Part shown: one piece after another, positions 16,640 to 42,425 of the stretch | Position numbering within the stretch: the stretch's first letter is position 1 | Layout: each line of letters begins with the position of its first letter | Source of the DNA: Mya arenaria | Lineage: Eukaryota; Mollusca; Bivalvia; Myida; Myidae | NCBI RefSeq assembly: GCF_026914265.1 | Contig: NC_069122.1 | Coordinates: forward strand, 33,283,473 to 33,347,472 | Length of the DNA stretch: 64,000 nucleotides | Direction: 5' to 3' | Translations under genes and position numbers: made by a program | Notes under the pieces: generated by a model | What the model saw: the letters and a program-made list of their open reading frames with translations, nothing else | Told to the model about the DNA's origin: nothing | Databases searched by the model: none

Positions 16640-19600
16640 AATCACTTCCGACTGGATGGTGGGACTCAAGCTGAAACATTAAACAGGTGCAGTACCTAAT
16701 TTCAATAAAAAGTTGAATTATAATTAAAACAAGTATCATAATTAAACAAACAATTGTTCAAGATATAACTACAATGGTGATAAACTAATACTTTTAACCC
16801 CCCCCCCCCAAAAAAAAAACCCAACAAACAACAACAACAGAAGTTCATTTAATAAATATATTCATATTAGTTAATGCTAAGATTATTTCATCTGTTTTTT
16901 TCACTATATATTTCATAAGCCTTTCCTATTATAAATTAACCATATTCAATTTAACACAAACAAAGCCCCACTCCAATTTCCAATATTATATATACATGAA
17001 AAATGAAATAAAACATTTCCTGCTACCCGAGTTCGGTTAAAGAAATCTTGGAAAAAATGCTGGTGCCTTTTAGCATTCTCACTGTAAGATTTCAAAAACC
17101 AACAGAAAATGCCTTTTCAATTTTGGTGTATTTGGAAAAAAAGAATCGTTCATTCGAAGAATCATTGATATGTTTAATAAAGTAATTGATTTAATAACAA
17201 CCTTCAAAAATGTAATCCATATATTTTAATTAATTCATTATAAGGCTATGAAATATAAAGTGACCTACTTAGTGAAAACATTCTTTCAAGATGAATTTTA
17301 AAAACAACAACAATGCTGGGCCAAATAGTTCCAACATAAACTTATACAAAAAAGTGAGCAAAATAATACATATCTTTGTTGACGATGTTGTCCACATTAG
17401 CTTACTCAAACCTGACTGCCAATGTAGTTGCATTACACCTCTTCGCCAACTCCACTGCAAAGGGCATCTCTTCTGGTTGGATGGCTGGCCACTTCTGGTA
17501 CCGTGGATGCTGTAACATTGATATTTATATGAAAAACTGATGCAGTAACTTATTTCAAGAAATTAAATAAACAATTGTTTAACATGTGAATTAAGATAAG
17601 TTATAAGCAAATATCATTCAAAATCAATTAAATAATGTTTATTAAACAAATATATTCATATGAATTAAATCAGTTTAATATTGTTTTGCACTCTTATTTC
17701 ATGAGCCTTTCCTACCAGTTTAATTATTAACTACGTTTAGACTTATTCAAATGGAGCCCCTCCAATGTGAAACATTTCACATAAAAATATTATAATTTGA
17801 CATACACCAAAATGAAATAAACATTTTCTGCTACTTGGGTTCGGTTAAAGAAATCTTGGGAAAAATGCTGGTGCCTTTTAGCATTCTCACTGTAAGATTT
17901 CAAAAACCAACAGAAAATGCCTTTTCAATTTTGGTGTATTTGGAAAAAAGAATCGTTCATTCGAAGAATCATTGATATGTTCAATAAAGTAATTGATTTA
18001 ATAACAACCTTCAAAAATGTAATCCATATATTTTAATTAATTCATCATAAGGCTATGAAATATAAAGTGACCTACTTAGTGAAAACATTCTTTCAAGATG
18101 AATTTTAAAAACAACAACAATGCTCGGCCAAATAGTAAAAACATAAACTTATACAAAAAAGTGAGCAAAATAATACATATCTTTGTTCATCATGTTGTCC
18201 ACATTAGCTTACTCAAACCTGACTGCCAATGTAGCTGCATTACACCTCTTCGCCAACTCCACTGCAAAGGGCATCTCTTCTGGTTGGATGGCTGGCCACC
18301 TGAGGTACCGTGGACGCTGTAACATTGATATTTATATGAACAACTGATACAGTAACTTACTTCAAGAAATTCAATAAACAATTGTTTAACATGTGAATTA
18401 AGTAGTTATAAGCAAATATCATTGGAAATCAATTAAATGATGTGACAAATATATTCATATGAATTAAATCAGTTTAATATTGTTTTGCACTCTTATTTCA
18501 TGAGCCTTTCCTACCAGTTTAATTATTAACCATGTTTAGACTTATTCAAATGGAGCCCCTCCAATGTGAAACATTTCACATAAAAATATTATAATTTGAC
18601 ATACACCAAAATGAAATAAACATTTTCTGCTACTTGGGTTCGGTTAAAGAAATCTTGGGAAAAATGCTGGTGCCTTTTAGCATTCTCACTGTAAGATTTC
18701 AAAAACCAACAGAAAATGCCTTTTCAATTTTGGTGTATTTGGAAAAAAAGAATCATTCATTCGAAGAATCATTGATATGTTTAATAAAACAATTGATTTA
18801 ATAAGAACCTTCAAAAATGTAATCCAAATATTTTAATTATTCATTATAAGGCTATGAAATATAAAGTGACCTATTTAGTGAAAACATTCTTTCAAGATGA
18901 ATTTTAAAAACAACAACAATGCTGGGCCAAATAGTTCAAACATAAACTTATACAAAAAAGTGAGCAAAATAATACATATCTTTGTTGACGATGTTGTCCA
19001 CATTAGCTTACTCAAACCTGACTGCCAATGTAGCTGCATTACACCTCTTCGCCAACTCCACTGCAAAGGGCATCTCTTCTGGTTGGATGGCTGGCCACTT
19101 CTGGTACCCTGGACGCTGTAACATTGATATTTATATGAAAAACTGATGCAGTAACTTATTTCAAGAAATTGAATAACAATTGTTTAACATGTGAATTAAG
19201 TAGTTATAAGCAAATATCATTCAAAATCAATTAAATGATGTTTATTAAACAAATATATTCATATGAATTAAATCAGTTTAATATTGTTTTGCACTCTTAT
19301 TTCACCAGCCTTTCCTACCAGTTTAATTATTAACCACGTTGAGCCTTATTCAAATGGAGCCCCTCCAATGTGAAACATTTTACTTAAAAATATTATAATT
19401 TGACATACACCAAAATGAAATAAACATTTTCTGCTACTTGGGTTTGGTTAAAGAAATCTTTGGAAAAATGCTGGTGCCTTTTAGCATTCTCACTGTAAGA
19501 TTTCAAAAACCAACAGAAAATGCCTTTTCAATTTTGGTGTATTTGGAAAACAGAATCATTTATTCAAAGAATCATTGATATGTTTTAATAAAACAATTGA

Positions 19601-19897
19601 GATTTAATAAGAACCTTCAAAAATGTAATTCATATGTTTTAATTATTCATTATAAGGCTATGAAATATAAAGTGACCTACTTAGTGAAAACATTCTTTCA
19701 AGATGAAATTTTTAAAAACAACAACAATGCTGGGCCAAATAGTTCCAACATAAACTTATACAAAAAAGTGAGCAAAATAATACATATCTTTGTTGACGAT
19801 GTTGTCCACATTAGCTTACTCAAACCTGACTGCCAATGTAGCTGCATTACACCTCTTCGCCAACTCCACTGCAAAGGGCATCTCTTCTGGTTGGATG
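16640..19897 (-). repeat. 803-bp satellite, left arm, with 98-bp exon-like modules
   Basis: Units of about 800-807 bp. The first (16640-17280) is diverged and its module is broken by a deletion and a stop. The next have intact modules at 17412-17509, 18219-18316 and 19018-19115; a fourth starts at 19826 and is cut by the transposon at 19897. On the minus strand each module follows a GTTACAG-type acceptor and ends at CAG|GTTTGA (or six bases on at GTAAGC). Type B reads HPRYQKWPAIQPEEMPF, type A RPRYLRWPAIQPEEMPF; both go on to AVELAKRCNA. Units here differ more from each other than those of the right arm. Spacers are as conserved as modules. Confidence 0.85.
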
Positions 19898-20240
19898 CCC
19901 TTCCCTAAATTTGCCACCAAATGCCATGAATTTGGGTGGCACTTGGTGGAAAATGGGTGGCACTTGGTGGAAAATGGGTGGCACTTGGTGGAAAAAGGGT
20001 GGCACTTGGTGGAAAATCAGGAATTCCACCAACTGCCACGAATTTTCCACCCTTTTCCACGTGGCATTTGGTGGAAATTTGAACTTAGCTTTTTTTTTAG
20101 GTGGCACTTGGTGAAAAATTTGAACTTAGTTTATTTTTGAAGTGGCAGTTGGTGGAAAAATTGGACTTAGCTTTTTTTTGATGTGGCATTTGTTGAAAAA
20201 GTGGGACTTAGTTAATTTTGGACGTGGCAGTTGGTGTAAA
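19898..20240. repeat. Left terminus and subterminal repeats of the transposon
   Basis: After the 18-bp end come about nine copies of GTGGCA(C/G/T)TTGGTGGAAAA, the first four spaced about 22 bp apart, the later ones 45-60 bp apart, plus two inverted copies (CCACCAACTGCCAC near 20026 and CCACGTGGCA near 20057). In CACTA elements such subterminal repeats bind element-encoded protein and are needed for transposition; here that role is inferred. Confidence 0.85.
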
Positions 20241-21321
20241 AAAAAACTTAGAATATTTTCATAATTCTGCAAGATTTTTCTTCAGCTAAATTTGTTGGCT
20301 GTTTCAATGAAAAATGATGATAACATCATTAATCAAATTGCAAAAAAAATCATTTTCATCCTTTGTGCATTCTTTCGATTCTTTATTGAAATACTGAATG
20401 TTAGACAATTTCAGACATGATCATTATGCATTTCAAACCATAATTAAAAAAACTCACTTGTTAATTGCAATAACACAATGGCAACTACATCAGCTTATTC
20501 ATTGTATACCACAACTATCAAATACATTAATGCAGTAAAGCCACTTTAAGAATGACACATCATGTCTTGAAATATAATGTTTGATGGTTTTGTTTTTATT
20601 TATTCACATTGTAAGCAATACAACTGTTGTTTTTTTTGTACTGTTTTTAGCTTATGACTGTATATGGTAAGCTCAAATCTTGTCCAGAACAAAAATCAAG
20701 GTATGCGTGAAAACTCTTGTTCTTGTCATTGATAAGTCTTGCCCCTTTTTGGCAAAATGTAAAGAAAAAAACCACTTCCATCCATGGGTCAAGTGATGGT
20801 TTATTTTAACAAGTTTTGAAAGTTTCATGCCAAATTCACCATTTTTATTTCAACAATGATAAAATTGAATTGGCACAAATTCTTAATATTATGTAATAAA
20901 ACACAGACAATTTTTTATGTAATGTTTATTAATTCAACACAATCATTAAACATTTGCTTTTGAATGTAGTTACTATTTCAAAAACTCATATTAAAACATT
21001 GCAAAAGTATACTGGGAGCTAAACTTTAAATTTTTGAATGTCAAAAAAAAAAGTTAAAATGTTTGTTTTATCATTGTTACTGTTCAAAGCAATATTCAAT
21101 CACATGGAATTCATTCATATAATCCTTATTATTTCAAATAACTTCAAGCATCTTTGTATTACAATTCACATGCAAGTGTCAATTATAAAATGAAAACAAG
21201 AGGGGCAAGCCAGTAAAAATTGAAACAATTAAATGCTGCCATGTTCCCACTGTATATGTCTCATTATGAAGTTATAACTGATGTATTAAAGAAGTATGTT
21301 CACAACAAAACGGATTCAATC
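20241..21321. other. Non-coding transposon interior, left
   Basis: AT-rich DNA between the left subterminal repeats and the transposase stop codon. It would hold the transposase 3' UTR. No exon seen. Confidence 0.5.
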
Positions 21322-24300
21322 TCAGTCACCTTCAACACTATTTGGAATGTCAGATATGATGTGATGATCATTCACAGTAAAGCTGACCAGGATTGACTGT
21401 ATATTGGTAGCCTTCTCAACCTTTTCCTCTCTGAAAAAATAAAGAATATCACAGGTTTAACTTAAAGGGTTGGTTTTTCGAAATAATTGTTTAATAAACA
21501 TATATCTCTTCAAACAAAAAGAAATTTACCTTCAGACATAAAAAAAATGCATAACCTTTATGTCAACCATCAAGTTAAATTTTAGGAAGATGTCTAAAAT
21601 CAAAGTTTAAGTATTCAACCTAGTTCTAATGTAGTTTATCTTTCATTGAGTGTGCAAAATGTAGTTAAGTGACTTATACTGTTCATATCGAATGCAAAAG
21701 TCATATTAAACATATATATAGTGTATAATAAACATTTGTTGTATTACCTGGTTACTTCTACGACTTTTAGATGGGGTGCATTTGCTTGAAGGACATGACT
21801 GGTGATAGCTAACTCCTTCCCAATGGCATATACCTTCCCTGTTGATGTTTCAATGATGAAATACTGTATTTCAATGTATCTTGCAGAGTTACTAGTATCA
21901 CTAACAAGAACAGTGTAGGAGTTCCTTGATTTTACTTTCATGCAACTTTTGCTGTAAATAGTTTTGCCATTCACAACACACTTCTTTACTTTCATGTATT
22001 TAGAAATGTCTGATGTTCCGGCTAAACTTTCAAGTTGATTTCTAATTTGCTCTGGGAAACTCATTCCTTTTGAAAACGTATACTTTTTTCGCACTATGCA
22101 CTGTTTGGTTTCATCATGCTGTGTTTTGTTGGACAAAGTTTGAACAAATTCAAGGGTCTTGGTGTCATTTATTTCCGAAAAACTTTGTTCTACATATTTT
22201 TGTGCCATAAGTGCCCAAAATATTTGTAAACAAACATTCCCCGTTCCATGAACTGTCTTTTTAATTTGCCCGTTAAAGGATTCAAAAGAAAAGCACGACC
22301 AAGCCCACAATGGACCCCAGTTCCTAACACATGTAGTTAAATGCAAAAGATTGTGCATATTCAGTCCCATTATATTGTCATGGTAAAGAGCTGGGGCGGT
22401 TTTTAAGAACATGTGCAATATTTGATCAGCACGGTGAAGATCTTCATGGCTTATGCCTTCTGTCAAAAGAATAAAAACAGCCTCTACTAGAAGACTGTAG
22501 TGTTTTAGGTAGATGTCTGGTAAAATATCTTTCAAACACGGCAGGCTGTAAAACAGCAACCACGCCCGCAGTTCTGATGCCTTCCAATGTTTCATTGTTG
22601 TTGATAATTTTCTTGGCAGCCTACTGATAGAATGTGGGGGTGTTATTTGCATCAACTTATTGTCTACTTCATTTACCCTTTTTCCAATGTAATACATTTC
22701 ACTTGAATGTTTGTTGTCTAACCAAAAGCTCAGAAGTTTTTTTGTAATGCCAAGTAGTATGCCATGCATGTAATCAACAACGATATTCTCATTCAATTCA
22801 AAATGTTCAAGATACATTAGAACACTTTCTCCTTGGAATCCATTGATATTCATTTTTGTTTTGCTTTTTTTTCGTCTGTAACTCTTTGCTACGTTCGTTG
22901 TTCATTATCTGTGCATTCCCGGTATCAGCTTTTATTTGGTCTTTACTTCTCAACCTAGGGTTTTCTGTGTAAGGGAAACTTTTGCAATGACCTTTCCCAC
23001 TAGATGTTGTAACACCTTTTTCGAGACAGTAAACACATGGTTGCTCACCGTTGTGTGGAACCATTTTCAATACTGCTGATCTTGCTTGCAAATCCATCGT
23101 AGCAACAATTAACATTGCTTTGCATTTTATTTCACAAGAATCAACTGTGAAAGTGAAACCTTCTGTTTGCAAAACACTAAGGTCTTTGATCAGTTCTTTC
23201 AAAAAAATTGTCATTTGAGGTTTCCCTGCACCTTGCCACACTCCCCATAATAACATATTTTTTTTGTGAAATCTCTGACTGCGTGGTATTTCATTGATGA
23301 GGAGATAGACTGGCCACATGGAGACACCCGAGCTTTTGAAGAGAGGAACACCATCTGTAAACATGGTAAATGTTATATTGTCAGAGTTACTTAAGAAGCA
23401 TCCTTCAAGCTTCAATGCAGTATATGCATCACCATCTGTAATATCAGAAAAGGATGAATGAGTTGGTTTTGATCTCTCATCTTTTATGGATTCCCATACA
23501 CCTGGTCGTGTCAAAATTTCTTGAAGTTGCACCTTCAGATCGGCTGTCATAAAGAAACTCTTCGTTTTCAATGACGGCGTTTTGCCGGGACAGTTAGGGG
23601 TCGAACATGTGTCCTTGCCAGATTTAAGGATGTTTTTGCAAATGTTACAAAATGTGTGACTTTTGAGGAATGTGCCATTAAAACCACATCGTTCTTTGAG
23701 CACCTCAATATTTGTTTCAACAAGATTGCTCTCAGGTAAGTATAAATTAACAAGCTTTAGCAGATCTTCTAAAGCTGCATCAGAAAGGTTGTGTCTTGCA
23801 CTAAATGTTAGAATTGCAAGTTCATGTTCTTTTTTGGTGATTTGCGAATTATAGATACTATTTGGACACATGTTACATTTAACAATGTAAAGCGGTGCGC
23901 TTTCTGTATCTTTGACATCATTATCTAGGATTGCATTTTCATTGATTTCATAATCAATGTCCATAGGTTCAGGTTCAACATTTGCACCAGCGTCATGTGT
24001 CAAGGGGACATGACATTCGTTAGACTGCATATGGGTGATTTCTTCATGATGTGTATGTTGACTTGTTGCAGTATGTTGGTGTTTTCTGGAAATAAAATTC
24101 AATATATTTTGTTCAAGTTGTATATATTTAAATGTAAAAAAAAATATATGAAATTTTACAAAATCAGACCAACTCGTGAGCTGAATCATTTTGTTTATAA
24201 ATAAAAAAATGTTTGTGATGCTAGAAGTAGTCATTTTTTAATTATTGTAGTACTTCACTTGTTCCTGTCATTTTCATTGTATTATCTTTATGGAATTATA

Positions 24301-26869
24301 AATACCTCCAGGCCGTTGTTCTGGGAAATGTATCCACAGCAGTATACTCGTAATCTTTGTAGGTCCTTGTTTGAACACAGTCTGTAAAGATAACACATTT
24401 TGTAAACGATGTTATGAAATATATAACATTTTGACAAGTATTTTCCAATCGATCTTTTTATGAATAAATGCAAAAGTTGCTTAAACTTTCATTCCCTTGT
24501 TTTTGAAAAGATCAATATTCCTGTGAATTCAACAAAACACTGGCAAGTTCATTTAAAACAGTTACGTTAACACATTCCCCTATAAGGACACCTCAACTCA
24601 ATCCACCAGCGTTTTGTGGAGTTAAGGAATCATGCAGGATAGGACATGTGTTATGGCCACGCCCCACCCCTCCCACCACAACCACAATGACAAATGTGAA
24701 ACAAACACTTTTTAAAGACAATTTGAACCTAATCATTTATCACAAAAACTAGAGCTATCACTGAAGATGATTAATACCCTCAAACGCCGCACTGATATGA
24801 AATTGCAGTCAACTATTTGGAAAGCAAACCTATAATTGACTTTATTTTATTTTATGGACTATCGTCAGTTATTCATTTTTTTATTATGTTTTTAAAAATT
24901 AGAAAAAAAGGATTTAAACAATATCAGTGATGTTAATACTGAGATGTTAATACTGATATATTTGATGTTCTTAAGCACATAATATACAAATGCCTATGAC
25001 CATGAGTTAAGTTACTTTTTTCAAGTTATGCTCCGGACATGAAAAAGTAACAAAGGGCAGTAACTCTGTAATAAGCTTATATAGAATTGCGGTTCCTGTA
25101 CACTGCATTTCCTCTCATTATGATCTATCACTGTATGAAGTTTTATTAAATTCAATCCAATAGTTTTTAAGTTATGCTCCGGACAAGAAAAAAGTAACAA
25201 AGGGCAGTAATTCTGTAGTTAGCTGAAATAGAATTGCGGTTCCTGTACACTGCACTTCCTATCATTATGATCTTTCACTGTATAAATCTTTATTAAATTC
25301 CATCCAACAGTGTTCAAGTTATGCTCCGGACAAGAAAAAAGTATTAAAGGCCATAACTCTGTAATTAGCTAAAATAGAGTTATGGTTCTTGTGCATTGCA
25401 TTTCCTCTCATCGTACTTTACCATTGTATGAAGATTTAATAAATTCCATCTGTTTGCAAGTTAATGTCTGGTAAAAAAGACAGCAAAAAAACAAGAAATA
25501 AAGGGCAATAACTCAGTAATTAGTTAAGTAGAGTTATGGTTCTTGTGCACTGCACTTCCTCTCATTGTGCTTTACCATTGTATGAAGTTTCAATGAATTC
25601 CATCCAGTACTTTTCAAGTTATACTTCGGACAAAAAAGTAACAAAGGGCAATAACTCAGTAATAAGCAAGAATATAGTTATGGTTATTGTACTCTGCACT
25701 TCCTCTCATTATGCTCTACCATTGTATGAAGTTTAATCCAATTCCATTTAGTAGTTTTAAAGTTATGCTCCGGACAAGGTAAATTGCAACGGACCGACCG
25801 ACAAACCGACCGACCGACCGACCACAGGGTAACTCCAATATACCCCTTTCAAACTTCGTTTGTCGGGGGTATAATAACAATAGAAACGCTTTCTCGAACA
25901 TACATAAATTTTGGAAAAATGTAAGTTCATTTGCGTGTGTTTTTATGATGAATGAGCATGTTCCAATGATTGTAATTCTGTTTTGTTTGTTTTATCATTT
26001 GGGGTTGGGTGTTCAAAATGGGTCCTGTAAACGTACGTGCCGCCTGTTATTATCTACGTCGAGACAATCGGCGACACGACATGAGAAGCATACGTGGTAT
26101 TCGTTAAAACGATATTAACAACAAAGTCTCATTCGCTACAAGAACATCATCATCCTAGTGCAATAACTCAATAAATGCCTATAGAGACATAGGCAGATAC
26201 TAAGTCCTTTCCTTTAGGGTGATGACATAATTTATCTGCTTCATATGTGCACAATTTTCGGAGTATATGGTTGCGTAGTAACCGCATATTTACATTGATC
26301 TGACAGCTTCCTGTTTAATCGGATTAAACTTCCGCTTAGTACGTCCATATAAGCATTTGTACGTGAACATTTACAAGGTCTTTACAACATCGTAATGATA
26401 TTTTATACTAGAGCGTTTTAACTGTAAAAAGATATAATTACATTTCTCCAATTGATGAAACACTGCAATGTGAATCTTGAGCGTCTGCTTTCTACTTAAA
26501 ACTTTCGTACATCCGCCTACTGGACAGAGCCACTGTTTTTCTCCCTTTCGACATTCGATAAGCCGTTCGTCATCAAAGCTTAAAAAGTAGGAAAAATGCA
26601 TATTGAAATACCACAATCACAATAAAGATATGTTTTGATTACAAATATAAGGATGTGTTTAACAACATTCCCACGTGTGTTTTGGCGCGTTTTGAGACGA
26701 GCAGACGACATGTTTCTGTATCCGACTGCAATGTGAAACGTTTTAGTGATAAATCACTTTATAATATACGTCAAGTAAACAATAAAAATAATTATTTTTA
26801 AACTTACATATTTTTCGAATAGATGATCTCCGTATGTTCGCTGTTACCATCCATGTTTTTCATTGCCAT
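21322..26869 (-). CDS. CACTA/EnSpm (tnp2-like) transposase with C2H2 finger, frameshifted
   Basis: Five exons on the minus strand: 26869-26808, 26578-26442, 24381-24306, 24085-21748 and 21430-21322. Every junction keeps phase if one extra base in exon 4 is disregarded, giving about 906 residues. A classic C2H2 finger (C-x4-C-x12-H-x4-H, residues 39-62) comes first. A second Cys cluster (C-x2-C ... C-x4-C) lies near 238-257. The transposase core follows: TDGVPLFKSS (D near 336), MDLQARS (D near 423), DYMHGILLGI (near 530), and GPLWAWSCFSFESFNGQ with E near 698, giving candidate DDE residues. The frame shifts by one near 22855-22875 within or beside a run of eight A (minus strand), so this copy is either inactive or carries a sequence error. 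Confidence 0.88.
24382..26441. repeat. Transposase intron 2 with about 150-bp tandem repeat
   Basis: From about 25010 to 25790 five to six copies of a unit of about 145-155 bp recur, marked by AAGTTATGCTCCGGACAAG, AACAAAGGGCAGTAACTCTG and CTTCCTCTCATTATG. They end in a (CGAC)n run at about 25790-25822 and a tail, CGGGGGTATAATA, near 25864. The head-to-tail arrangement with that tail is a repeat type I recall from bivalves. It is a passenger in the intron. Confidence 0.7.
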
Positions 26870-27568
26870 GTCGTCAAAATTAATTGACTAAATGCTAAAT
26901 TAACTTGCTCAAATATGAAATTGTGCAATCACCCGAGTGAATCAGTCGAACTAACTATCTAATGAGCATGCATAAAATGTTGGTTTCTTGTGCATATTTT
27001 GTTTTTACTTTAATGCTGTATATCGAAAATCAGAGGGTTTCTATCATGTTTAAGCCGTAGCAATGGGACGGTATTTTTTAGACGACATTATAAAAGTCCA
27101 AGAAAAAAATCTTCGTAAAAAAGAACACGAACCATGAGCCCTTTATACAGGATATTTGAAGGCTTTTTATGTTCATACTTTCCTGCTTAATATTATCAAT
27201 CGTATAACTGTCTCTGTCTGCCCGATTAGCTCAATTTTACCACGCAATGTTAAATAAGTGCAATGAGAATGCATGGTCGTTATACAATTTTAGTGTACCG
27301 TTTATATACTACTATCATACGTATTGCTGATGATAAAGCATGTGTTCAAATTAATGATAATTATCAAAACCAGAAATGTACTTTTTTTTTTGAATTGCCT
27401 TGCATAACTGATCATGGGCTATCATGACTTTAGTATAGAGGTCTGATTGTTTATTCACCCTGACCACTCGTAGGCCAGTACGGCCGTGGCACTGATTTAT
27501 GGGCGTTAGGCGCGTGGCGGGTTCCAGAAAGTTTAAAGTTGAATATTTTCTAGCAGCGATCTTAGACA
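26870..27568. promoter_or_regulatory. Divergent 5' region shared by the two transposon genes
   Basis: A 699-bp stretch separates the transposase ATG (26869, minus) from the BEN-protein ATG (27569, plus). Both promoters must lie here or in unseen upstream exons. I see no consensus TATA box close to either start. The last 110 bp before the plus-strand ATG are richer in GC and CpG than the surroundings. Confidence 0.55.
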
Positions 27569-30500
27569 ATGGCGGAAAATTTTTGCCTTTTCATTTGGAT
27601 AAATGATAATCCCATAAGTGGGAGTGTGCTAAGAATTCGGAATATAGTGCATCCAAGAAGGGACTTTAATGCCTATACCGAAGGAGAGACGGTTACCGTC
27701 AAATGCCCTGGAATTGGAAAGCATGATGCCTTAATCGGGAAAATTGGAGGTAAGTTAATTCAAATATTTTGCTTGTTAAGTAAACAACATTGGTGATGAT
27801 TCTAGAATATTGACCACAGGGATTGCGTAGTTTGTAAGAAGTATATTGCATATACACACCAGAACAAACCAGTTTAATAAAAATGAATGCTATTAGCTGA
27901 TAGGGTGAATTGGCATTATCGAAATTCGCCTTATTTAAAAGATAAATAGCAAATAATTAAAAAGTAGAACCCACCATTAATACTAGAATCGACTATTTTA
28001 TATGATTTTAGAAAGGCGCGCAATGGGCATTATTTTGAAAAATAGTAGTGTGTGACCTCCGGTGCAAGTTTCACAACGTGTGACCTCCGGTGCAAGTTTC
28101 ACAACGTAAAAATATATTGACATTGCTGCAAAAAAAATTCCGGAAAATCTCGAATGCTTGAAGGAAATATTGCTTGATAATTATATTGCATTAGGTATTT
28201 CTTTCAAGCGTTCCCATCGTCTATCTTCAAAACCTTAGGATTAAATCAGTGTTAAATGTGTTGATTTTATTTGTTAGGAAATGAAGACAAGAAGACGATT
28301 GAAGCTGTCCTGGCCGATTCTGGTCGATTTCAAGAACTGCTTTTGAAGTTCAAAGTACGTAATCTTTCAAACTATATGTCTCTGCGTTATATAACAGCAT
28401 AACTTTTATTTCAAAACAGAAATTGTAGCTTGGCTGAAAGTGTTAAAAATATTTAAAGTGACATTTTTCACGCTGTAAATAGAAGGGAATAGGCCTTACT
28501 AACATGTCACCATGAGCGGGGGCATTACTGCTGGACAGTGATTATATAACCAGGGATTGACTGGAATGAAAGTCCTCTGATTTCCCCAGGCCGGGGGGGG
28601 GGGGGGGGGGGGGGGCTACAGATCAGATGCAAACTGTACTAGTAATTGTCAGATGAAATTGAAAAATAACTTTGATTTAATATCTAAACAATAAGATGTA
28701 GGCATAAATCGAGTGAACAAGTGGATTTTTTAATTCCAATGCCACATTATCTGTTTTCAGATATCGAAGAGGAGTGACAATACAGTCCCAAATGCAGCCG
28801 TACAGGTTGAACTTTTCACATTATTGATAAATCTAATAAATAGATACATTTCATTCAACAAATACAATGAAATAATGTGTAGAATTTTTAAATGTACCTG
28901 CATTTGTATTCAACTGAAATCCATCTTGAGAAAATTATTCCTAAATTTTAAAAGTTGTCGAGGATGCTGTTTGTAACTTTTATTGTGCTATCAGCCATGC
29001 ACAGGTATAATAAAGGTTTTATTTCATAACTTTCAGAATGATGTATTGCCAGACGGCGGAAATAACATAGTGGTGTCAGACAAGGTGAAGGTGAGTGGAT
29101 AATAAGAACTTGATATAGATATATATCTTCATGTTGGAAAATAACTCTTTGTCTCTTGTTATCATTAACCCATCTTTGAATAAAGATTCTTTTATCTTGT
29201 ATATTAAATATTTAACTTGAGTAAATAGCAACAATTCATTTGTTAGGTTCAAAGAATGTGCATAACTTTTTTCTTCTAAATCAGTAAATGTCTCTTTGAA
29301 ATTAGATGCTTTTACCAGAGAGTCATAAGGCACTGGTCATTGACATTTTGTATTTTAATCTTTAATCCTTGTCTCTTTAAAGACTGTTGTTGTCAAGCCA
29401 AAAACAGTTAAGAGGAAAGTGTGCTTTTCGGACAAGCAAACAGCTGCAGTTGAAGAGGTTTGTTTAAAGAATTGATATTAAATCATAAATACAGTCTACT
29501 AAGAAGATTTATGTTTAGTATACTGGAAAGCATAAACATATCCGTTTGAACAACTATTAACTTACATATTAAAATAACCGTTTTTAACTTAATTAACATT
29601 GTGAAATGCATTCTTATGTAAAATTTTATTTATTATTAGGATAAATTGGAAACGATTGCTGAGGAGCTAGCTCTTGCTGATCTTTCACAGTCTGTACAGA
29701 AGAGGTTAATTTAAATATTTTAGATTTTTTTCTTCTTGATTTAATTAAATCTTTGCTGTATTATACATGTTGGTAACGGTACTTAATTCTTATTGCTCCA
29801 ACAACCTAAGTTTTTGAAGTATTACATAAGAACACTGCAGCAGGGATGTTCTATTAAGATGATAATGATTTAAATATTTTGACCATGTTGTCAAGGTTAG
29901 TGTTTGATAATAAGTGTGATTTATCAGTTAAATAGTAATGCATCAAAATATGTACTCGCTCTTTTATGAGGTCTTTTTGAATTTGTCACAATAGTCGATC
30001 TCTGTTAAAAACATAAAAGGTATTTAAGGCTAAAATTATTCAATTTTAAATTAAATTAGTGTATAAACTATTATATTTATTTTAGTGATGAAACTGGGCC
30101 GCTGGTAAGATCCAGTCTACAGCTGCTAGGGGGGGAAGACAGTGCCTTCGAGATTAGGAGATCCCCAAGGAGGACGCATTCAACCCCCTGTAGTGAATCG
30201 TGTGTTTCTCGGCAAGAGTTTATCCAACTTCAAAGTCAATGTGCTACTGTCGAGTTTTGGTGTCGACAGATGTGGAGTGACATCCAGGTTTGTTTTTTCC
30301 AGAATTTTTATCATTTCTTGAATTTCTCTTTGTTAGTTCTCTAGCAGCTGGTATGGTATTATAGGGTGAAAACCAATTAAACTTGCATCTTTAGTGGACT
30401 AGAATCAAACCAGGATTGTTTTTCAATCATATTTTGAATATTTATTCTTTGAAAAGACATTTAGTTGGGTGAATAACTTTCATTTGCATGTTGATGAAAT

Positions 30501-32569
30501 ACATCTTAATTTCAGTGCATGTTACTTGAGGAATCATAAATACCTTACTAAAACAGATGGCTGTCATTGAACAATTTTGCAGTTCTTTTTTTTTTATTAA
30601 ATTGCAGGGCTTTTTATCACTAGATAAACTCATTTATATTTAAAGTATGTTTTGTATTTCAGGCCATGAAGGCAGAACGTCAAGAAAGTTTCCAAAATCA
30701 ACATGATTTTCAGCAGGTGAATTGCAGTGTTAAAGAATTAGTAAATATTATTATATTTTTAAGTGCAGTTATGGACTCCAAGCTATATAAGCATTGTGCT
30801 ATATGTTGTCTACATAGTAAAATAACATCTTAAACTTGTACTTTTGAATACAAAACAAAACAATTTTTTTTTTAAATATCTTCTCTCAGAATTTCATACA
30901 TGATAACCTGATGGAGGATTCACACATGTCAGCCTCGGAGGAAGCCCAGCCCCTGACATCTGAGTGTTCAAAGCCTACTCTTTCAACTCCGTCTACACCT
31001 ACTACACCTACTACACCTACATCTTCCATATCGATGACGGGGTCTTATGCAGGGTATTCAAAGGTATATGCAAAGAAAACACTCAAACATTTGATTTCAT
31101 CTCATAATCTTCTTCTAAAATAAACTGAAATATTGTCAAAGTCAAACTTCATTAAGACAACCTTGTCCATCACTCAAACGTCAGTTCTAAAGTAGAAAGT
31201 ACACATGAGTAGCAAAGCTGATGACTCTTGCTTAAATAATAGTAGATATGCACCTTTTTCAACTTTGAAATTACAGATCATCATTGATTTGAATATTTAA
31301 TTACCGGTCTCATGTTTAAATATACTTTGATTATAATTATGCATGAGAATGATTTTGTTATAGTCAAAATTGCAAAAAGTAAAGTTATTATAAATTAATA
31401 AGAGCCTGTCAGAGTAGAAGAAATTTATCTTTCTACATACAAAACTTTATTTATTTTCTTTATTTAACATTTTCAGCTCACCTGAACACGAAGTTCTCAA
31501 GGTGAGCTGTTGTGATCGCCCTGTGTCCATCGTAGTCGTCCATCCTCAACAATTTGACTGTTAACACTCTAAAGGTCACAATTTGGGCACAATCTTAATG
31601 AAACTTGGCCAGAATGTTACACTCAATAAAAGCTTGGACGAGTTCGATATTGGGTCATCTGGGGTTAAAAGCTCTAAGCCAAGTTCCAGTATTGGTCATG
31701 TGCAGTCAAAAACTAGGTCACCAGGTCAAATTAAAGGAAAAGCATTTTAACACTCTAGAGGCCACATTTATGATCATATGTTCATAGAACTTGATCAGAA
31801 TGTTATTCTTGATGGTCTTTATTGGATCCGATGAGCTATACAGGGCCTTCAGGGCCCTCTTGTTTTTGATTATTTTTTTTAAATATGAAGTGCTATTGGT
31901 AAATCATTTATGATCTGCTTCCTAAAGTTCAACCTTTAGTTATCTGTACTGTTTCAAACTGCTTTTTACTTTCCTTTAATAATTGCCATCAAATCATATT
32001 CTTTTATTTAGGTGCAAATTCTGGAGGAAGCAAAGCGGCAAAAAAATTACAAGAAGGCGACCGCAAGAGTGTTCCGCCTTCTTTTCACCAAACAGGAAAT
32101 CAATGGGAGGAGCCTCTTCGGAAAGAAGAACACATCAGGGGATGTGAGGCCTGCACTGGCTGATCAGTCAAAACTGGCTTTTTTGGAAGGTAAGCAAGGA
32201 TTTCTTTTGTGGCTTATGCAAGTTTGATGGCATGGCAATAACATGATATAGAAAGGTCTGGAATTAATGCAGTGCCCTTGACAATTTATATATTCTGTAA
32301 AGTGATAAGATCTGTTATTTGGGGGTGGGGGTGTAGTATACATGCATCATTTAGTAAAATTCATCTGCTACAAACTCCTGCTATAAAGAGTATTAACCCA
32401 AAATTACAAGTATATTATATGGTATGTATCACCATTAATAATTCACAAGTGTGCTCATAGCAACTGTTATTCTGTACTTTCAGACTGCATTGTAGAAGTA
32501 TGGGGAATCCGCAAGGAGATGGTTCGAGTTGTCCTGAGGCATCTCCTGAAGCCGTCAAGAATATCTTAA
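27569..32569 (+). CDS. BEN-like domain protein carried by the transposon, 11 exons
   Basis: Exons: 27569-27749, 28278-28354, 28761-28805, 29037-29090, 29383-29457, 29640-29704, 30086-30287, 30663-30716, 30890-31063, 32012-32189, 32484-32569. All ten junctions are GT-AG and in phase, giving 1191 bp or 396 residues with an intact stop. Residues about 1-85 (FCLFIWINDN ... FQELLLKFK) look like a small beta-rich fold, possibly Tudor/SH3-like, unassigned. The middle is charged, then a Ser/Thr-Pro run (STPSTPTTPTTPTSS). The last 80 residues (RVFRLLFTKQEINGRSLFGK ... LADQSKLAFLE ... VVLRHLLKPS) resemble a BEN domain, a DNA-binding fold. By position it is the element's second protein, as TNPA is in plant CACTA elements; binding to the end repeats is inference. 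I know no gene name for it. Confidence 0.82.
28593..28615 (+). repeat. Run of 23 G in BEN-gene intron 2
   Basis: An uninterrupted G tract, unusual in this AT-rich DNA. It could form quadruplexes and is prone to sequencing length error. Confidence 0.95.
31475..31866 (+). repeat. AGCTCACCTGAAC dispersed element, in BEN-gene intron 9
   Basis: Starts CAGCTCACCTGAACACGAAG and contains the self-inverse pair AGCTCACCT / AGGTGAGCT near its start. It ends near CAGGGCCTTCAGGGCCCTCT. Same family as 2041. It contains a tandem 'AAGGTCACAATTTGGGCAC / GAGGCCACATTTATGATCAT' arrangement. It is a later insertion into the large transposon. Confidence 0.7.
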
Positions 32570-32940
32570 TGTTTTTTCATTTTTCAATGTTATCGATTTT
32601 GTAGTAAAATGTTAAAAATCAATTCACTTCTTTTACTGGGAAGGTGAAGCCCGAGCAGAGAGTATTAAGTCTGTTAAGTTTTATTTATATTTGGATCACA
32701 TCTCACATTAATAAACAATCAACATTAGCCATAATCAAAACAAACATACAAACGTTTTCAAATCTACTATTTTCATATAATTACATATCCATGTTACATA
32801 CAGTTCTTGTCACCAGCATATTTAGGACAGATAATGGAACCCTGATATAACGAATACAGAACTTTGGTGACCGTGTTGACCATATTTGGAAGGATGCAGT
32901 GAACGGATACTAAACCCTGAAATATTTGCACACAAATGCA

Positions 32941-33453
32941 ACAGGGCATTTGGTGGAAATGATTTAATAAATTTCACCAACTGCCACGTCTGGGTGGCAG
33001 TTGGTGTAAATATTTGCCACGTGGCACTTGGTGGAAAACGTTCCAATACTCCACCAACTGCCACGTCTGGGTGGCAGTTGGTGTAAATATTTGCCACGTG
33101 GCACTTGGTGGAAAACGTTCCAATACTCCACCAACTGCCACGTCTGGGTGGCAGTTGGTGTAAATATTTGCCACGTGGCACTTGGTGGAAAACGTTCCAA
33201 TACTCCACCAACTGCCACGTCTGGGTGGCAGTTGGTGTAAATATTTGCCACGTGGCACTTGGTGGAAAACGTTCCAATACTCCACCAACTGCCACGTTAG
33301 GGTGGCAGTTGGTGGAAAATGATAAAAATTAGATGAGAGTCAATGATTTTCTTAATTTTTTCCTCATTTTACACCAAGTGCCACGTCGTTCCAATACTCC
33401 ACCAACTGCCACCCATTTTCCACGTCCATTTTCATGGCAAATTTAGGGAAGGG
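32941..33453. repeat. Right subterminal array of the transposon, 77-bp unit
   Basis: Four tandem 77-bp units (starting about 33022, 33099, 33176, 33253) each hold GTGGCACTTGGTGGAAAA, an inverted CCACCAACTGCCAC and a further GTGGCAGTTGGTG. Single copies lie outside them, and the 18-bp terminal repeat closes at 33453. The core word is that of the left end; the tandem architecture is not, so the two ends are asymmetric. Confidence 0.9.
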
Positions 33454-36400
33454 TGGCTGGCCACTTCTGGTACCGTGGATGCTGTAACATTGATATTCAT
33501 ATGAACAAATGATACAGTAACTTATTTCAAGAAATTAAATAAACAATTGTTTAACATGTGAATTAAGTAGTTATAAGCAAATATCATTCGAAATCAATTA
33601 AATGATGTTTATTAAACAAATATATTCATATGAATTAAATCAGTTTAATATTGTTTTGCACTCTCATTTCATGAGCCTTTCCTACCAGTTTAATTATTAA
33701 CTACGTTTAGACTTATTCAAATGGAGCCCCTCCAATGTGAAACATTTCACATAAAAATATTATAATTTGACATACACCAAAATGAAATAAACATTTTCTG
33801 CTACTTGGGTTCGGTTAAAGAAATCTTGGGAAAAATGCTGGTGCCTTTTAGCATTCTCACTGTAAGATTTCAAAAACCAACAGAAAATGCCTTTTCAATT
33901 TTGGTGTATTTGGAAAAAAGAATCGTTCATTCGAAGAATCATTGATATGTTCAATAAAGTAATTGATTTAATAAGAACCGTCAAAAATGTAATCCATATA
34001 TTTTAATTAATTCATCATAAGGCTATGAAATATAAAGTGACCTACTTAGTGAAAACATTCTTTCAAGATGAATTTTAAAAACAACAACAATGCTCGGCCA
34101 AATAGTTCCAACATAAACTTATACAAAAAAGTGAGCAAAATAATACATATCTTTGTTCATCATGTTGTCCACATTAGCTTACTCAAACCTGACTGCCAAT
34201 GTAGCTGCATTACACCTCTTCGCCAACTCCACTGCAAAGGTCATCTCTTCTGGTTGGATGGCTGGCCACCTGAGGTACCGTGGACGCTGTAACATTGATA
34301 TTTATATGAACAACTGATACAGTAACTTACTTCAAGAAATTCAATAAACAATTGTTTAACATGTGAATTAAGTAGTTATAAGCAAATATCATTCGAAATC
34401 AATTAAATGATGTGACAAATATATTCATATGAATTAAATCAGTTTAATATTGTTTTGCACTCTTATTTCATGAGCCTTTCCTACCAGTTTAATTATTAAC
34501 CATGTTTAGACTTATTCAAATGGAGCCCCTCCAATGTGAAACATTTCACATAAAAATATTATAATTTGACATACACCAAAATGAAATAAACATTTTCTGC
34601 TACTTGGGTTCGGTTAAAGAAATCTTGGGAAAAATGCTGGTGCCTTTTAGCATTCTCACTGTAAGATTTCAAAAACCAACAGAAAATGCCTTTTCAATTT
34701 TGGTGTATTTGGAAAAAAGAATCGTTCATTCGAAGAATCATTGATATGTTCAATAAAGTAATTGATTTAATAAGAACCTTCAAAAATGTAATCCATATAT
34801 TTTAATTAATTCATCATAAGGCTATGAAATATAAAGTGACCTACTTAGTGAAAACATTCTTTCAAGATGAAATTTTTAAAAACAACAACAATGCTGGGCC
34901 AAATAGTTCCAACATAAACTTATACAAAAAAGTGAGCAAAATAATACATATCTTTGTTGACGATGTTGTCCACATTAGCTTACTCAAACCTGACTGCCAA
35001 TGTAGCTGCATTACACCTCTTCGTCAACTCCACTGCAAAGGGCATCTCTTCTGGTTGGATGGCTGGCCACTTCTGGTACCATGGATGCTGTAACATTGAT
35101 ATTTATATGAACAAATGATACAGTAACTTATTTCAAGAAATTAAATAAACAATTGTTTAACATGTGAATTAAGTAGTTATAAGCAAATATCATTCGAAAT
35201 CAATTAAATGATGTTTATTAAACAAATATATTCATATGAATTAAATCAGTTTAATATTGTTTTGCACTCTCATTTCATGAGCCTTTCCTACCAGTTTAAT
35301 TATTAACTACGTTTAGACTTATTCAAATGGAGCCCCTCCAATGTGAAACATTTCACATAAAAATATTATAATTTGACATACACCAAAATGAAATAAACAT
35401 TTTCTGCTACTTGGGTTCGGTTAAAGAAATCTTGGGAAAAATGCTGGTGCCTTTTAGCATTCTCACTGTAAGATTTCAAAAACCAACAGAAAATGCCTTT
35501 TCAATTTTGGTGTATTTGGAAAAAAGAATCGTTCATTCGAAGAATCATTGATATGTTCAATAAAGTAATTGATTTAATAAGAACCGTCAAAAATGTAATC
35601 CATATATTTTAATTAATTCATCATAAGGCTATGAAATATAAAGTGACCTACTTAGTGAAAACATTCTTTCAAGATGAATTTTAAAAACAACAACAATGCT
35701 CGGCCAAATAGTTCCAACATAAACTTATACAAAAAAGTGAGCAAAATAATACATATCTTTGTTCATCATGTTGTCCACATTAGCTTACTCAAACCTGACT
35801 GCCAATGTAGCTGCATTACACCTCTTCGCCAACTCCACTGCAAAGGTCATCTCTTCTGGTTGGATGGCTGGCCACCTGAGGTACCGTGGACGCTGTAACA
35901 TTGATATTTATATGAACAACTGATACAGTAACTTACTTCAAGAAATTCAATAAACAATTGTTTAACATGTGAATTAAGTAGTTATAAGCAAATATCATTC
36001 GAAATCAATTAAATGATGTGACAAATATATTCATATGAATTAAATCAGTTTAATATTGTTTTGCACTCTTATTTCATGAGCCTTTCCTACCAGTTTAATT
36101 ATTAACCATGTTTAGACTTATTCAAATGGAGCCCCTCCAATGTGAAACATTTCACATAAAAATATTATAATTTGACATACACCAAAATGAAATAAACATT
36201 TTCTGCTACTTGGGTTCGGTTAAAGAAATCTTGGGAAAAATGCTGGTGCCTTTTAGCATTCTCACTGTAAGATTTCAAAAACCAACAGAAAATGCCTTTT
36301 CAATTTTGGTGTATTTGGAAAAAAGAATCGTTCATTCGAAGAATCATTGATATGTTCAATAAAGTAATTGATTTAATAAGAACCTTCAAAAATGTAATCC

Positions 36401-39400
36401 ATATATTTTAATTAATTCATCATAAGGCTATGAAATATAAAGTGACCTACTTAGTGAAAACATTCTTTCAAGATGAAATTTTTAAAAACAACAACAATGC
36501 TGGGCCAAATAGTTCCAACATAAACTTATACAAAAAAGTGAGCAAAATAATACATATCTTTGTTGACGATGTTGTCCACATTAGCTTACTCAAACCTGAC
36601 TGCCAATGTAGCTGCATTACACCTCTTCGTCAACTCCACTGCAAAGGGCATCTCTTCTGGTTGGATGGCTGGCCACTTCTGGTACCGTGGATGCTGTAAC
36701 ATTGATATTTATATGAACAAATGATACAGTAACTTATTTCAAGAAATTAAATAAACAATTGTTTAACATGTGAATTAAGTAGTTATAAGCAAATATCATT
36801 CGAAATCAATTAAATGATGTTTATTAAACAAATATATTCATATGAATTAAATCAGTTTAATATTGTTTTGCACTCTCATTTCATGAGCCTTTCCTACCAG
36901 TTTAATTATTAACTACGTTTAGAATTATTCAAATGGAGCCCCTCCAATGTGAAACATTTCACATAAAAATATTATAATTTGACATACACCAAAATGAAAT
37001 AAACATTTTCTGCTACTTGGGTTCGGTTAAAGAAATCTTGGGAAAAATGCTGGTGCCTTTTAGCATTCTCACTGTAAGATTTCAAAAACCAACAGAAAAT
37101 GCCTTTTCAATTTTGGTGTATTTGGAAAAAAGAATCGTTCATTCGAAGAATCATTGATATGTTCAATAAAGTAATTGATTTAATAAGAACCGTCAAAAAT
37201 GTAATCCATATATTTTAATTAATTCATCATAAGGCTATGAAATATAAAGTGACCTACTTAGTGAAAACATTCTTTCAAGATGAATTTTAAAAACAACAAC
37301 AATGCTCGGCCAAATAGTTCCAACATAAACTTATACAAAAAAGTGAGCAAAATAATACATATCTTTGTTCATCATGTTGTCCACATTAGCTTACTCAAAC
37401 CTGACTGCCAATGTAGCTGCATTACACCTCTTCGCCAACTCCACTGCAAAGGTCATCTCTTCTGGTTGGATGGCTGGCCACCTGAGGTACCGTGGACGCT
37501 GTAACATTGATATTTATATGAACAACTGATACAGTAACTTACTTCAAGAAATTCAATAAACAATTGTTTAACATGTGAATTAAGTAGTTATAAGCAAATA
37601 TCATTCGAAATCAATTAAATGATGTGACAAATATATTCATATGAATTAAATCAGTTTAATATTGTTTTGCACTCTTATTTCATGAGCCTTTCCTACCAGT
37701 TTAATTATTAACCATGTTTAGACTTATTCAAATGGAGCCCCTCCAATGTGAAACATTTCACATAAAAATATTATAATTTGACATACACCAAAATGAAATA
37801 AACATTTTCTGCTACTTGGGTTCGGTTAAAGAAATCTTGGGAAAAATGCTGGTGCCTTTTAGCATTCTCACTGTAAGATTTCAAAAACCAACAGAAAATG
37901 CCTTTTCAATTTTGGTGTATTTGGAAAAAAGAATCGTTCATTCGAAGAATCATTGATATGTTCAATAAAGTAATTGATTTAATAAGAACCTTCAAAAATG
38001 TAATCCATATATTTTAATTAATTCATCATAAGGCTATGAAATATAAAGTGACCTACTTAGTGAAAACATTCTTTCAAGATGAAATTTTTAAAAACAACAA
38101 CAATGCTGGGCCAAATAGTTCCAACATAAACTTATACAAAAAAGTGAGCAAAATAATACATATCTTTGTTGACGATGTTGTCCACATTAGCTTACTCAAA
38201 CCTGACTGCCAATGTAGCTGCATTACACCTCTTCGTCAACTCCACTGCAAAGGGCATCTCTTCTGGTTGGATGGCTGGCCACTTCTGGTACCGTGGATGC
38301 TGTAACATTGATATTTATATGAACAAATGATACAGTAACTTATTTCAAGAAATTAAATAAACAATTGTTTAACATGTGAATTAAGTAGTTATAAGCAAAT
38401 ATCATTCGAAATCAATTAAATGATGTTTATTAAACAAATATATTCATATGAATTAAATCAGTTTAATATTGTTTTGCACTCTCATTTCATGAGCCTTTCC
38501 TACCAGTTTAATTATTAACTACGTTTAGAATTATTCAAATGGAGCCCCTCCAATGTGAAACATTTCACATAAAAATATTATAATTTGACATACACCAAAA
38601 TGAAATAAACATTTTCTGCTACTTGGGTTCGGTTAAAGAAATCTTGGGAAAAATGCTGGTGCCTTTTAGCATTCTCACTGTAAGATTTCAAAAACCAACA
38701 GAAAATGCCTTTTCAATTTTGGTGTATTTGGAAAAAAGAATCGTTCATTCGAAGAATCATTGATATGTTCAATAAAGTAATTGATTTAATAACAACCTTC
38801 AAAAATGTAATCCATATATTTTAATTAATTCATCATAAGGCTATGAAATATAAAGTGACCTACTTAGTGAAAACATTCTTTCAAGATGAATTTTAAAAAC
38901 AACAACAATGCTCGGCCAAATAGTAAAAACATAAACTTATACAAAAAAGTGAGCAAAATAATACATATCTTTGTTCATCATGTTGTCCACATTAGCTTAC
39001 TCAAACCTGACTGCCAATGTAGCTGCATTACACCTCTTCGCCAACTCCACTGCAAAGGGCATCTCTTCTGGTTGGATGGCTGGCCACCTGAGGTACCGTG
39101 GACGCTGTAACATTGATATTTATATGAACAACTGATACAGTAACTTACTTCAAGAAATTCAATAAACAATTGTTTAACATGTGAATTAAGTAGTTATAAG
39201 CAAATATCATTCGAAATCATTTAATTGATTAAACAAATATATTCATATGAATTAAATCAGTTTAATATTGTTTTGCACTCTTATTTCATGAGCCTTTCCT
39301 ACCAGTTTAATTATTAACCATGTTTAGACTTATTCAAATGGAGCCCCTCCAATGTGAAACATTTCACATAAAAATATTATAATTTGACATACACCAAAAT

Positions 39401-41580: not shown

Positions 41581-42191
41581 AACAAGAGCTGTCCTAGGAC
41601 AGCGCTCTCGACTACACTGTTTTGACTTAGTAGGGAATACAACAAATATGTAATATTTCCAAGTTTGGTCTTTTTATGTCAAACCTAACTAAAACTAAAA
41701 TTATTGATACAGAAGGTGACTTTGATGCTGCATTGAATGAAGGGTATAGAAGTGTTTTTATTAAAATCCCAACTTGCCATAATATTTAACCAGCCCTAAA
41801 ACTTAAACATAAGTTAATCAGGGGCCATAACTTGTATTAAGGATAATATGGAGTTATGTAACCTCAATGTATGATGATCCTGAACCTGAAGTATCAAGTC
41901 AATTGAACGAAGGGTAAAGAAGTTATAGAAGTTATTAATAAATATCCCAATCTGCCCTAAAACCAAAGTTCCATAGTCAATCAGGTGCCATAATTTGTAT
42001 AAAGGGTAATATGGAGATATCTAACCTCATTAAGTGATGGCCATGAACAACTGTGTGAAGTATTAAGTCAATTGAATGAAGGGTATTGGACTTATTGTGA
42101 AAATCCCAACTTGCCCTAAAACTTTAACCGGACGCCAACGCTTGGGCGAGTAGTATAGCCCTCCTTATTCTTTGAAAAGTCGAGCTAAAAA
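41581..42191 (+). repeat. AACAAGAGCTGTC dispersed element, short copy
   Basis: Starts AACAAGAGCTGTCCTAGGAC and ends CGAGCTAAAAA, bounding the right edge of the satellite. It contains about three tandem sub-blocks of roughly 120-150 bp with 'GAATGAAGGGTATAGAAG' and 'TAATATGGAGTTATGTAACC'. The latter is the reverse complement of the copy in the THAP intron (6922-8092). Confidence 0.75.
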
Positions 42192-42308: not shown

Positions 42309-42425
42309 CTGATTAAGTCCAGCTATCAAGCCATTGGACGTCAGTAAGCTGTCACCCATAGCACTCTCCACCGAAAGGAGCATCTTTTCTTGTTGGTTGG
42401 TTGGACACTTCCAGTACCATAGATG
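42309..42425 (-). CDS. Possible exon, diverged member of the satellite module family
   Basis: On the minus strand a GCTTCAG acceptor precedes a 117-bp open stretch ending AATCAG|GTGAGC, a near-perfect donor. It reads HLWYWKCPTNQQEKM and goes on for 39 codons without a stop. The opening aligns with HPRYQKWPAIQPEEM of the satellite modules. Its length is a multiple of three. Unlike the satellite it is single copy, so it may be closer to the ancestral exon. Function unknown. Confidence 0.4.

Follow-up and report, generated by a model that had tools for sequence, protein, structure and literature searches.

The window analyzed here is a 64,000-nucleotide stretch of the Mya arenaria genome (C1:33283473-33347472), and it contains a complete CMC/EnSpm-type DNA transposon of 13,556 bp in which two divergent genes begin mid-element and finish near the element ends. 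The minus-strand gene encodes a transposase and the plus-strand gene a protein with a predicted C-terminal BEN domain; the same divergent pair recurs in a second, distant element that has its own subterminal motif. The element is hosted by a satellite of ~805 bp (array 17000-41584), whose monomers of ~803-808 bp alternate to give a 1606-bp dimer unit on the right of the element. The 18-bp terminal inverted repeats (CCCTTCCCTAAATTTGCC) are exact, and at up to three mismatches the two element ends are the only matches in the window (shuffled expectation 0.05). The insertion borders read ...GGATG followed by CCC on the left and GGG followed by TGGCTGG... on the right. At the insertion spot, 13 other copies of the satellite read ...GGTTGGA-TG-GCTGG..., with a single TG and no insert, and a 14th, degenerate copy at 42375 has a single TG too, whereas the occupied copy carries TG on either side of the element; therefore, the 13,556 bp were inserted as a single unit, and an artefact of the satellite was ruled out by the 13 empty copies. 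Both the 18-bp terminal repeats and the TG duplication had been claimed in a first-pass annotation of this DNA, and both were confirmed. No Rfam match was found in the whole window at the gathering score, and no plasmid relatives were found for the left 403 bp of the element.

The minus-strand gene corresponds to NCBI MAR_006785, and its product matches the Transposase_21/tnp2 profile (PF02992, E 6.9e-11, 42.2 bits against a cut-off of 28.6), with a second match of the main exon to DUF1258 (E 9.3e-11), in agreement with the tnp2-type transposase proposed in the first pass. The catalytic residues D336, D423, C442/C445, H669/H673 and E693 (read-through numbering) are present in the window copy, which thus has all seven residues of a DDE arrangement with C(2)C and H(3)H between the second D and the E; among aligned relatives, the six residues after the first D are found in 10/10 and the first D in 9/9 of those covering that position. 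This order of D, D, C(2)C, H(3-4)H and E has been described as the signature of the CMCT clade (PMC12730594). The intactness of the transposase did not hold up, as its reading frame changes at an A-run near 22866. The NCBI protein P0003 ends at the same frame break and, probably deriving from the same assembly, provides no independent check; in the NCBI model, its first exon reads BEN exon 9 in antisense, probably as an artefact of annotation. Because the frame is broken, the window copy is probably not autonomous now, barring assembly error or slippage bypass. By eye, the C-terminal ending PN..E.D of the window transposase recurs in the proteins P0004, P0009 and P0028, and the C2H2-like finger stretch recurs in Dreissena and Solemya proteins (by eye) and in the second element (by tblastn). 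A protein search with the transposase gave 50 matching proteins, its own included, the named matches being from Dreissena (a 934-residue protein at 45% identity, plus another), Solemya, Mercenaria, Pecten, Lingula, Ixodes and Callosobruchus; viral and prokaryote contigs searched with the transposase alignment, and viral contigs searched with P0004, gave no relatives. The long second intron holds a 147-bp tandem array and a GACC run (25018-25823).

The plus-strand gene was modeled with 11 exons and ten introns, all GT-AG (10/10), encoding 396 amino acids without an internal stop, and NCBI LOC128226566 (P0001) is identical to this model save for the 15 residues of exon 3, leaving an exon number of 10 or 11. 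The uninterrupted BEN-like gene of the earlier annotation is upheld in this form. That the C-terminal domain adopts a BEN fold is supported by the predicted structural model; an assignment from Pfam alone was dropped, as neither the window protein nor the Mytilus homolog P0053 matched BEN (PF10523) above the curated cut-off, and the Dreissena homolog reached 14.4 bits against a cut-off of 23.2. The Pfam comparison suggested in the first pass gave a match above cut-off for the transposase and none for the BEN protein. No Pfam family was assigned to this second protein in the scan, including the plant TNPA families (Transposase_24 and the like), none above cut-off to its conserved N-terminal domain, and a PDB sequence search with the protein returned no BEN chain. 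Viral and prokaryote contigs searched with the BEN alignment contained no relatives, and transposase, BEN and N-terminal-domain queries had no match in the window outside the element.

Patterned subterminal repeats, likewise noted at both ends in the first pass, are present. The motif CCAMNWGCCA, picked post hoc once the element ends had been inspected, has 27 matches in the window (2.0 expected), of which 26 belong to the element; the outermost 337 bp at its left end hold 10 of these and the outermost 477 bp at its right end the other 16, with none between. Within the 77-bp unit on the right, CACCAACTGCCAC and GTGGCAGTTGGTG stand inverted with ~6 nucleotides between them, an arrangement that suits dimer binding. 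The repeats adjoin the 3' ends of both genes and lie ~5-7 kb from their shared start region.

Table 1. Features of the transposon and its flanks in the window.
Feature	Position	Strand	Remark
CMC/EnSpm-type DNA transposon, complete, 13,556 bp	19898..33453	.	18-bp terminal inverted repeats, TG duplication, 13 empty satellite sites
Target-site duplication TG, left	19896..19897	.	
Target-site duplication TG, right	33454..33455	.	
Left terminal inverted repeat	19898..19915	+	CCCTTCCCTAAATTTGCC
Right terminal inverted repeat	33436..33453	-	reverse match of CCCTTCCCTAAATTTGCC
Left subterminal repeats	19917..20234	.	21-bp and 41-bp periods, GTGGCASTTGGTG
Right subterminal repeats	32977..33411	.	77-bp period, inverted pairs CACCAACTGCCAC / GTGGCAGTTGGTG
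Transposase exon 5, C-terminus	21322..21430	-	splice model
Transposase exon 4, tnp2 catalytic region	21748..24085	-	PF02992; contains frame break near 22866
Transposase exon 3	24306..24381	-	splice model; present in P0003 too
Transposase exon 2, C2H2-like zinc finger	26442..26578	-	zf-C2H2 E 0.005, below curated cut-off
Transposase exon 1, predicted start	26808..26869	-	splice model; not part of NCBI model P0003
Interval between divergent predicted start codons, 699 bp	26870..27568	.	putative shared promoter (activity inferred)
BEN exon 1	27569..27749	+	conserved N-terminal domain (LFIWIND..)
BEN exon 2	28278..28354	+	
BEN exon 3	28761..28805	+	45 bp, not in NCBI model
BEN exon 4	29037..29090	+	
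BEN exon 5	29383..29457	+	
BEN exon 6	29640..29704	+	
BEN exon 7	30086..30287	+	long predicted helix starts
BEN exon 8	30663..30716	+	long predicted helix
BEN exon 9	30890..31063	+	BEN domain starts at exon's end
BEN exon 10	32012..32189	+	BEN domain
BEN exon 11	32484..32569	+	BEN domain end and stop
Host satellite array left of insertion	17000..19897	.	
Host satellite array right of insertion	33454..41584	.	1606-bp dimer unit

The genome searched comprises 1,216,080,610 bases in 18 contigs, and on contig C5 both P0001 (C5:56964247-56964420) and P0004 (C5:56966356-56968073) have matches within a second element of 11,109 bp (56958026-56969134), with ends CCCGTCTGTACATTTTCCAG and CCCGTCTGTATATATTCCAG and TA on both flanks. 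Here the transposase is on the plus strand (finger exon 56965144-56965254) and the BEN-type gene on the minus strand, with its N-terminal exon at 56964420-56964247 and its BEN exon at 56959390-56959214, the latter 46% identical to Mytilus P0053. The subterminal motif is the palindrome TTCCATGGAA, with six exact copies in the 20-kb region (counted without a shuffle control): four within 348 bp of the left end, two within 95 bp of the right end and none elsewhere. The two transposases are 44% and 54% identical in two main stretches, which by sequence comparison makes the C5 element no recent copy of that in the window; the N-terminal domains of the BEN genes are 45% identical. The predicted end of BEN exon 1 falls at the same position and phase in the window, in the C5 element and at a transposase locus on contig C11. 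At that locus, third in rank, a divergent N-terminal-domain exon (MFSIVYWEDCTFTVISL.., C11:18676458-18676625, E 2.7e-5 to 2e-4) stands head to head with a third transposase lineage.

Genome-wide, the 18-bp end was found at up to two mismatches 160 times in forward and 170 times in reverse orientation, versus 47 and 46 for a reversed control, and among the matches listed many form inward-facing pairs, commonly 2.7-3.0 kb apart. Six joined pairs measure 2679-3038 bp and are mutually 89-97% alike in their best pairwise stretches, a non-autonomous family of ~2.9 kb with the ends of the window element and a common interior (for example, C1:6593163-6596200). In the best six alignments of each copy to the window element, which leave room for weak interior similarity, resemblance is limited to the outer parts: ~33019-33453 at 86-87% on the right and ~19968-20200 at 84-85% on the left. 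Thus, the non-autonomous copies share the element's ends. The first pass had regarded copies with different endpoints as grounds for rejecting its boundaries; none were seen among the six, in which similarity continues to the 18-mer, all six having been selected by the 18-mer at both ends. The flanking 2 bp are identical in three of these six copies (CA, TG, TA), or in 4/7 with the window element included. Among the matches listed from genome searches with the 18-mer, BEN and transposase queries, one full insertion of the window family with both genes was seen. Three further copies of the BEN half lie at C3:68674576-68779025, two in the same orientation and one reversed, with the outermost matched exon ~650 bp inside a match to the terminal repeat. 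In the one copy examined across 10 kb, the BEN half and the adjoining end are kept at 82-93% identity and parts of the BEN gene are present twice; no transposase-exon or left-end match was found in this 10 kb, just 35-74-bp matches to the intron tandem array. The cluster is a locally amplified, truncated element. Another BEN gene copy extends across 17 kb at C9:5000586-5017380, with stops in two of three matched stretches.

Combined, these results are probably best explained by an animal CMC/EnSpm-group transposon that moves by cut-and-paste and has two components, the BEN protein being the element's partner of the transposase. Since the pairing recurs in the distant C5 element, the BEN gene probably belongs to the transposon as a helper of its own and is not a stray passenger. 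In the proposed mechanism, the minus-strand gene would produce a DDE transposase, bearing a C2H2-like finger at its N-terminus, that would cut the element at its CCC ends and give rise to 2-bp duplications. The plus-strand gene would produce a protein that has a small domain at the N-terminus, a long helix, and a BEN domain at the C-terminus. The BEN domains, as dimers or higher assemblies, would most probably bind the repeated, often inverted subterminal motif (GTGGCASTTGGTG in the window, TTCCATGGAA in C5), and the BEN protein would then join both ends and load the transposase, performing the role that TNPA has toward TNPD in plant Spm by means of an unrelated protein. The subterminal repeats are inverted pairs or palindromes in both elements and differ between the two as the proteins do. 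In Spm, the promoter lies near one element end; because the clam repeats sit 5-7 kb from the shared start region, unlike in Spm, end pairing is likelier than promoter control as the role of repeats and BEN protein. The comparison with TNPD and TNPA offered in the first pass is plausible, now with two elements carrying the pair; as for DNA binding, synapsis and a requirement for the BEN protein in movement, these we infer.

Several observations weigh against this interpretation. Full pairs of transposase and BEN gene were seen twice, both with a damaged transposase: in the C5 copy, two frames meet near 56967543, and tblastn found nothing between 56968037 and 56968308, the expected site of the E motif. 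At the C11 locus, no BEN exon and no terminal repeats or ends were found in the stretch examined, and neither a BEN nor an N-terminal domain was found in 8 kb upstream of the loci at C3:60.67 Mb (rank 4) and C7:22.00 Mb (rank 8). These three loci were chosen by transposase score without a BEN hit, C5 having been chosen for its BEN hit. Of the five loci viewed upstream, a count that leaves out two C1 loci (ranks 5 and 6), the full pair is present in the window and C5, part of it at C11 and none of it at the other two; either pairing with a BEN gene is not universal among such transposases or it was missed. Thirty transposase loci (L041-L070) showed no BEN match in 1.5-kb flanks, which are too short even for the spacing in the window and C5. 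The BEN-bearing elements counted here are a minimum; the genome search with the transposase scored 49 of 573 candidates. Homologs of the BEN gene were found in three bivalve species only, Mya included and thus in two others, by searches that require shared 5-residue words and of which one scored 8000 candidates; unlike these, the transposase matches reach Mercenaria, Pecten and Solemya too. Finally, the flanking 2 bp differ in 3/7 copies (GA/AC, CA/TA, TT/TG). For SmTRC1, a 2-bp repeat was reported at 7/14 copies (DeMarco et al. 2006, PMC1636069).

The BEN gene could instead be a captured host gene, a passenger without a role in movement. BEN genes are present in many invertebrate genomes, two of the three transposase loci not selected for a BEN hit lack a BEN gene in 8 kb upstream, and in the window the BEN gene is intact and the transposase broken. 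The non-autonomous copies also move without the BEN gene in cis, as any trans-acting gene permits. This explanation is nevertheless unlikely, as recurrence in C5 with the same predicted first-intron position would require a single capture to be old and then kept, and homologs in three bivalve species, set against the wider transposase matches, are patchy for a host gene. It is far less probable still, close to negligible, that a transposase element enclosed an unrelated BEN gene by chance: one full window-family insertion with both genes was seen, as such nesting would have it, but both genes lie within one exact insertion and C5 has the same layout.

A BEN protein that worked through chromatin or transcription, as an insulator of the copy or by lifting its silencing, and not within the transposition complex, would agree with the known insulator and repressor roles of BEN-solo proteins (PMC6911014), with the reactivation of a methylated promoter by plant TNPA (PMC1636069) and with the TET/JBP dioxygenase carried by fungal CMCT elements, which is thought to aid escape from silencing (PMC12730594). 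The repeats stand at the far ends, 5-7 kb from the start region, so that promoter control as in Spm fits poorly, and the ends are what the non-autonomous copies have in common with the element; we regard a chromatin role as quite improbable. Beyond the two-component reading, the BEN protein may tentatively be regarded as a dedicated, long-kept transposition subunit of bivalve CMC/EnSpm elements, with a DNA target that shifts with the repeats of each family (GTGGCASTTGGTG versus TTCCATGGAA), although the odds are somewhat against so broad a claim. If it is true, animal and transposon BEN factors would draw on one gene pool, and such transposons may be the origin of some BEN proteins that serve their hosts as insulators or repressors. 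BEN domains would gain a role as element-encoded transposon partners, the division of labor between TNPA and TNPD would have arisen in animals with an unrelated DNA-binding protein, and the descent of host BEN factors from transposons becomes an answerable question. Because the BEN protein and its candidate sites are carried by one and the same element, how BEN domains would recognize DNA sequence can be tested one family at a time.

With its exact ends, tnp2 transposase and divergent BEN-fold gene, the element is of the animal CACTA/EnSpm type, as first annotated. The further suggestion that CCC ends mark a distinct lineage was rejected, since CCC ends with 2-bp repeats have been on record since 2006 in Schistosoma, Tribolium and Aedes elements (DeMarco et al. 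2006, PMC1636069). These TRC elements (SmTRC1 of Schistosoma mansoni and those of Tribolium and Aedes) have Transposase_21, CCC ends, 2-bp flanking repeats and a tandem-repeat region in common with the clam element, which shows the CCC ends, 2-bp duplication and Transposase_21 of the group (PMC1636069). SmTRC1 likewise has an extra non-transposase product, SmTRC-PrA; its products come from alternative splicing, and the portion of that account consulted mentions no BEN domain, whereas the clam element has a separate, divergent BEN gene (PMC1636069). The plant CACTA elements Spm/En, Tam1 and Tgmt* share the tnp2 transposase, subterminal motifs and non-autonomous copies that keep the ends, and they have a second DNA-binding protein, of which the predicted BEN protein is the candidate clam counterpart; in Spm, TNPA binds the subterminal repeats and is required along with TNPD (PMC2613891, PMC8195511). 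They differ in their CACTA ends, a three-base duplication (Tgmt*), TNPA/TNP1 proteins that are not BEN proteins, and in deriving both products from one alternatively spliced gene, whereas the clam genes are on opposite strands (PMC2613891, PMC8195511). The window element ends in CCCTTCCC..GGGAAGGG and has neither CACTA nor CA..TG termini; CMC/EnSpm elements at large mostly, but not always, have CA..TG ends, and their accessory gene is TET/JBP in fungi as opposed to BEN here (PMC12730594). The 2-5 bp duplication of CMC/EnSpm elements is seen as TG against the 13 empty sites, in the 4/7 copies with identical flanks and as TA in C5. Plavaka elements have TGT..ACA or CATCA..TGATG ends and ESTA elements TA duplications (PMC12730594), and membership in either was rejected, given the CCC ends and matching duplications of TG, CA and TA rather than TA alone. 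BEND6, Insensitive, Bsg25A/Elba1, BANP, NACC1 and BEND3 have the BEN fold in common with the clam protein but are host chromatin factors, whereas the clam protein is transposon-encoded and has an additional conserved N-terminal domain. The Insensitive BEN domain binds the palindrome CCAATTGG (PMC6911014), and the palindromic target of NAC1 is ACATGT (PMC7764960). The element class and the CCC ends are therefore already known, and none of the papers listed in the literature searches describes a BEN gene in a CACTA/EnSpm element; within those searches, the head-to-head BEN gene as a second component is apparently undescribed.

Two further repeats were observed in the window to the left of the satellite array. 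Between 13618 and 16168, a 21-22-bp unit (ATCACTTCTGGTTGCAAGGGGT and variants) is repeated in several arrays, and at 8604-9746 an open frame of 380 amino acids contains a 24-bp repeat encoding TEPAV-type units.

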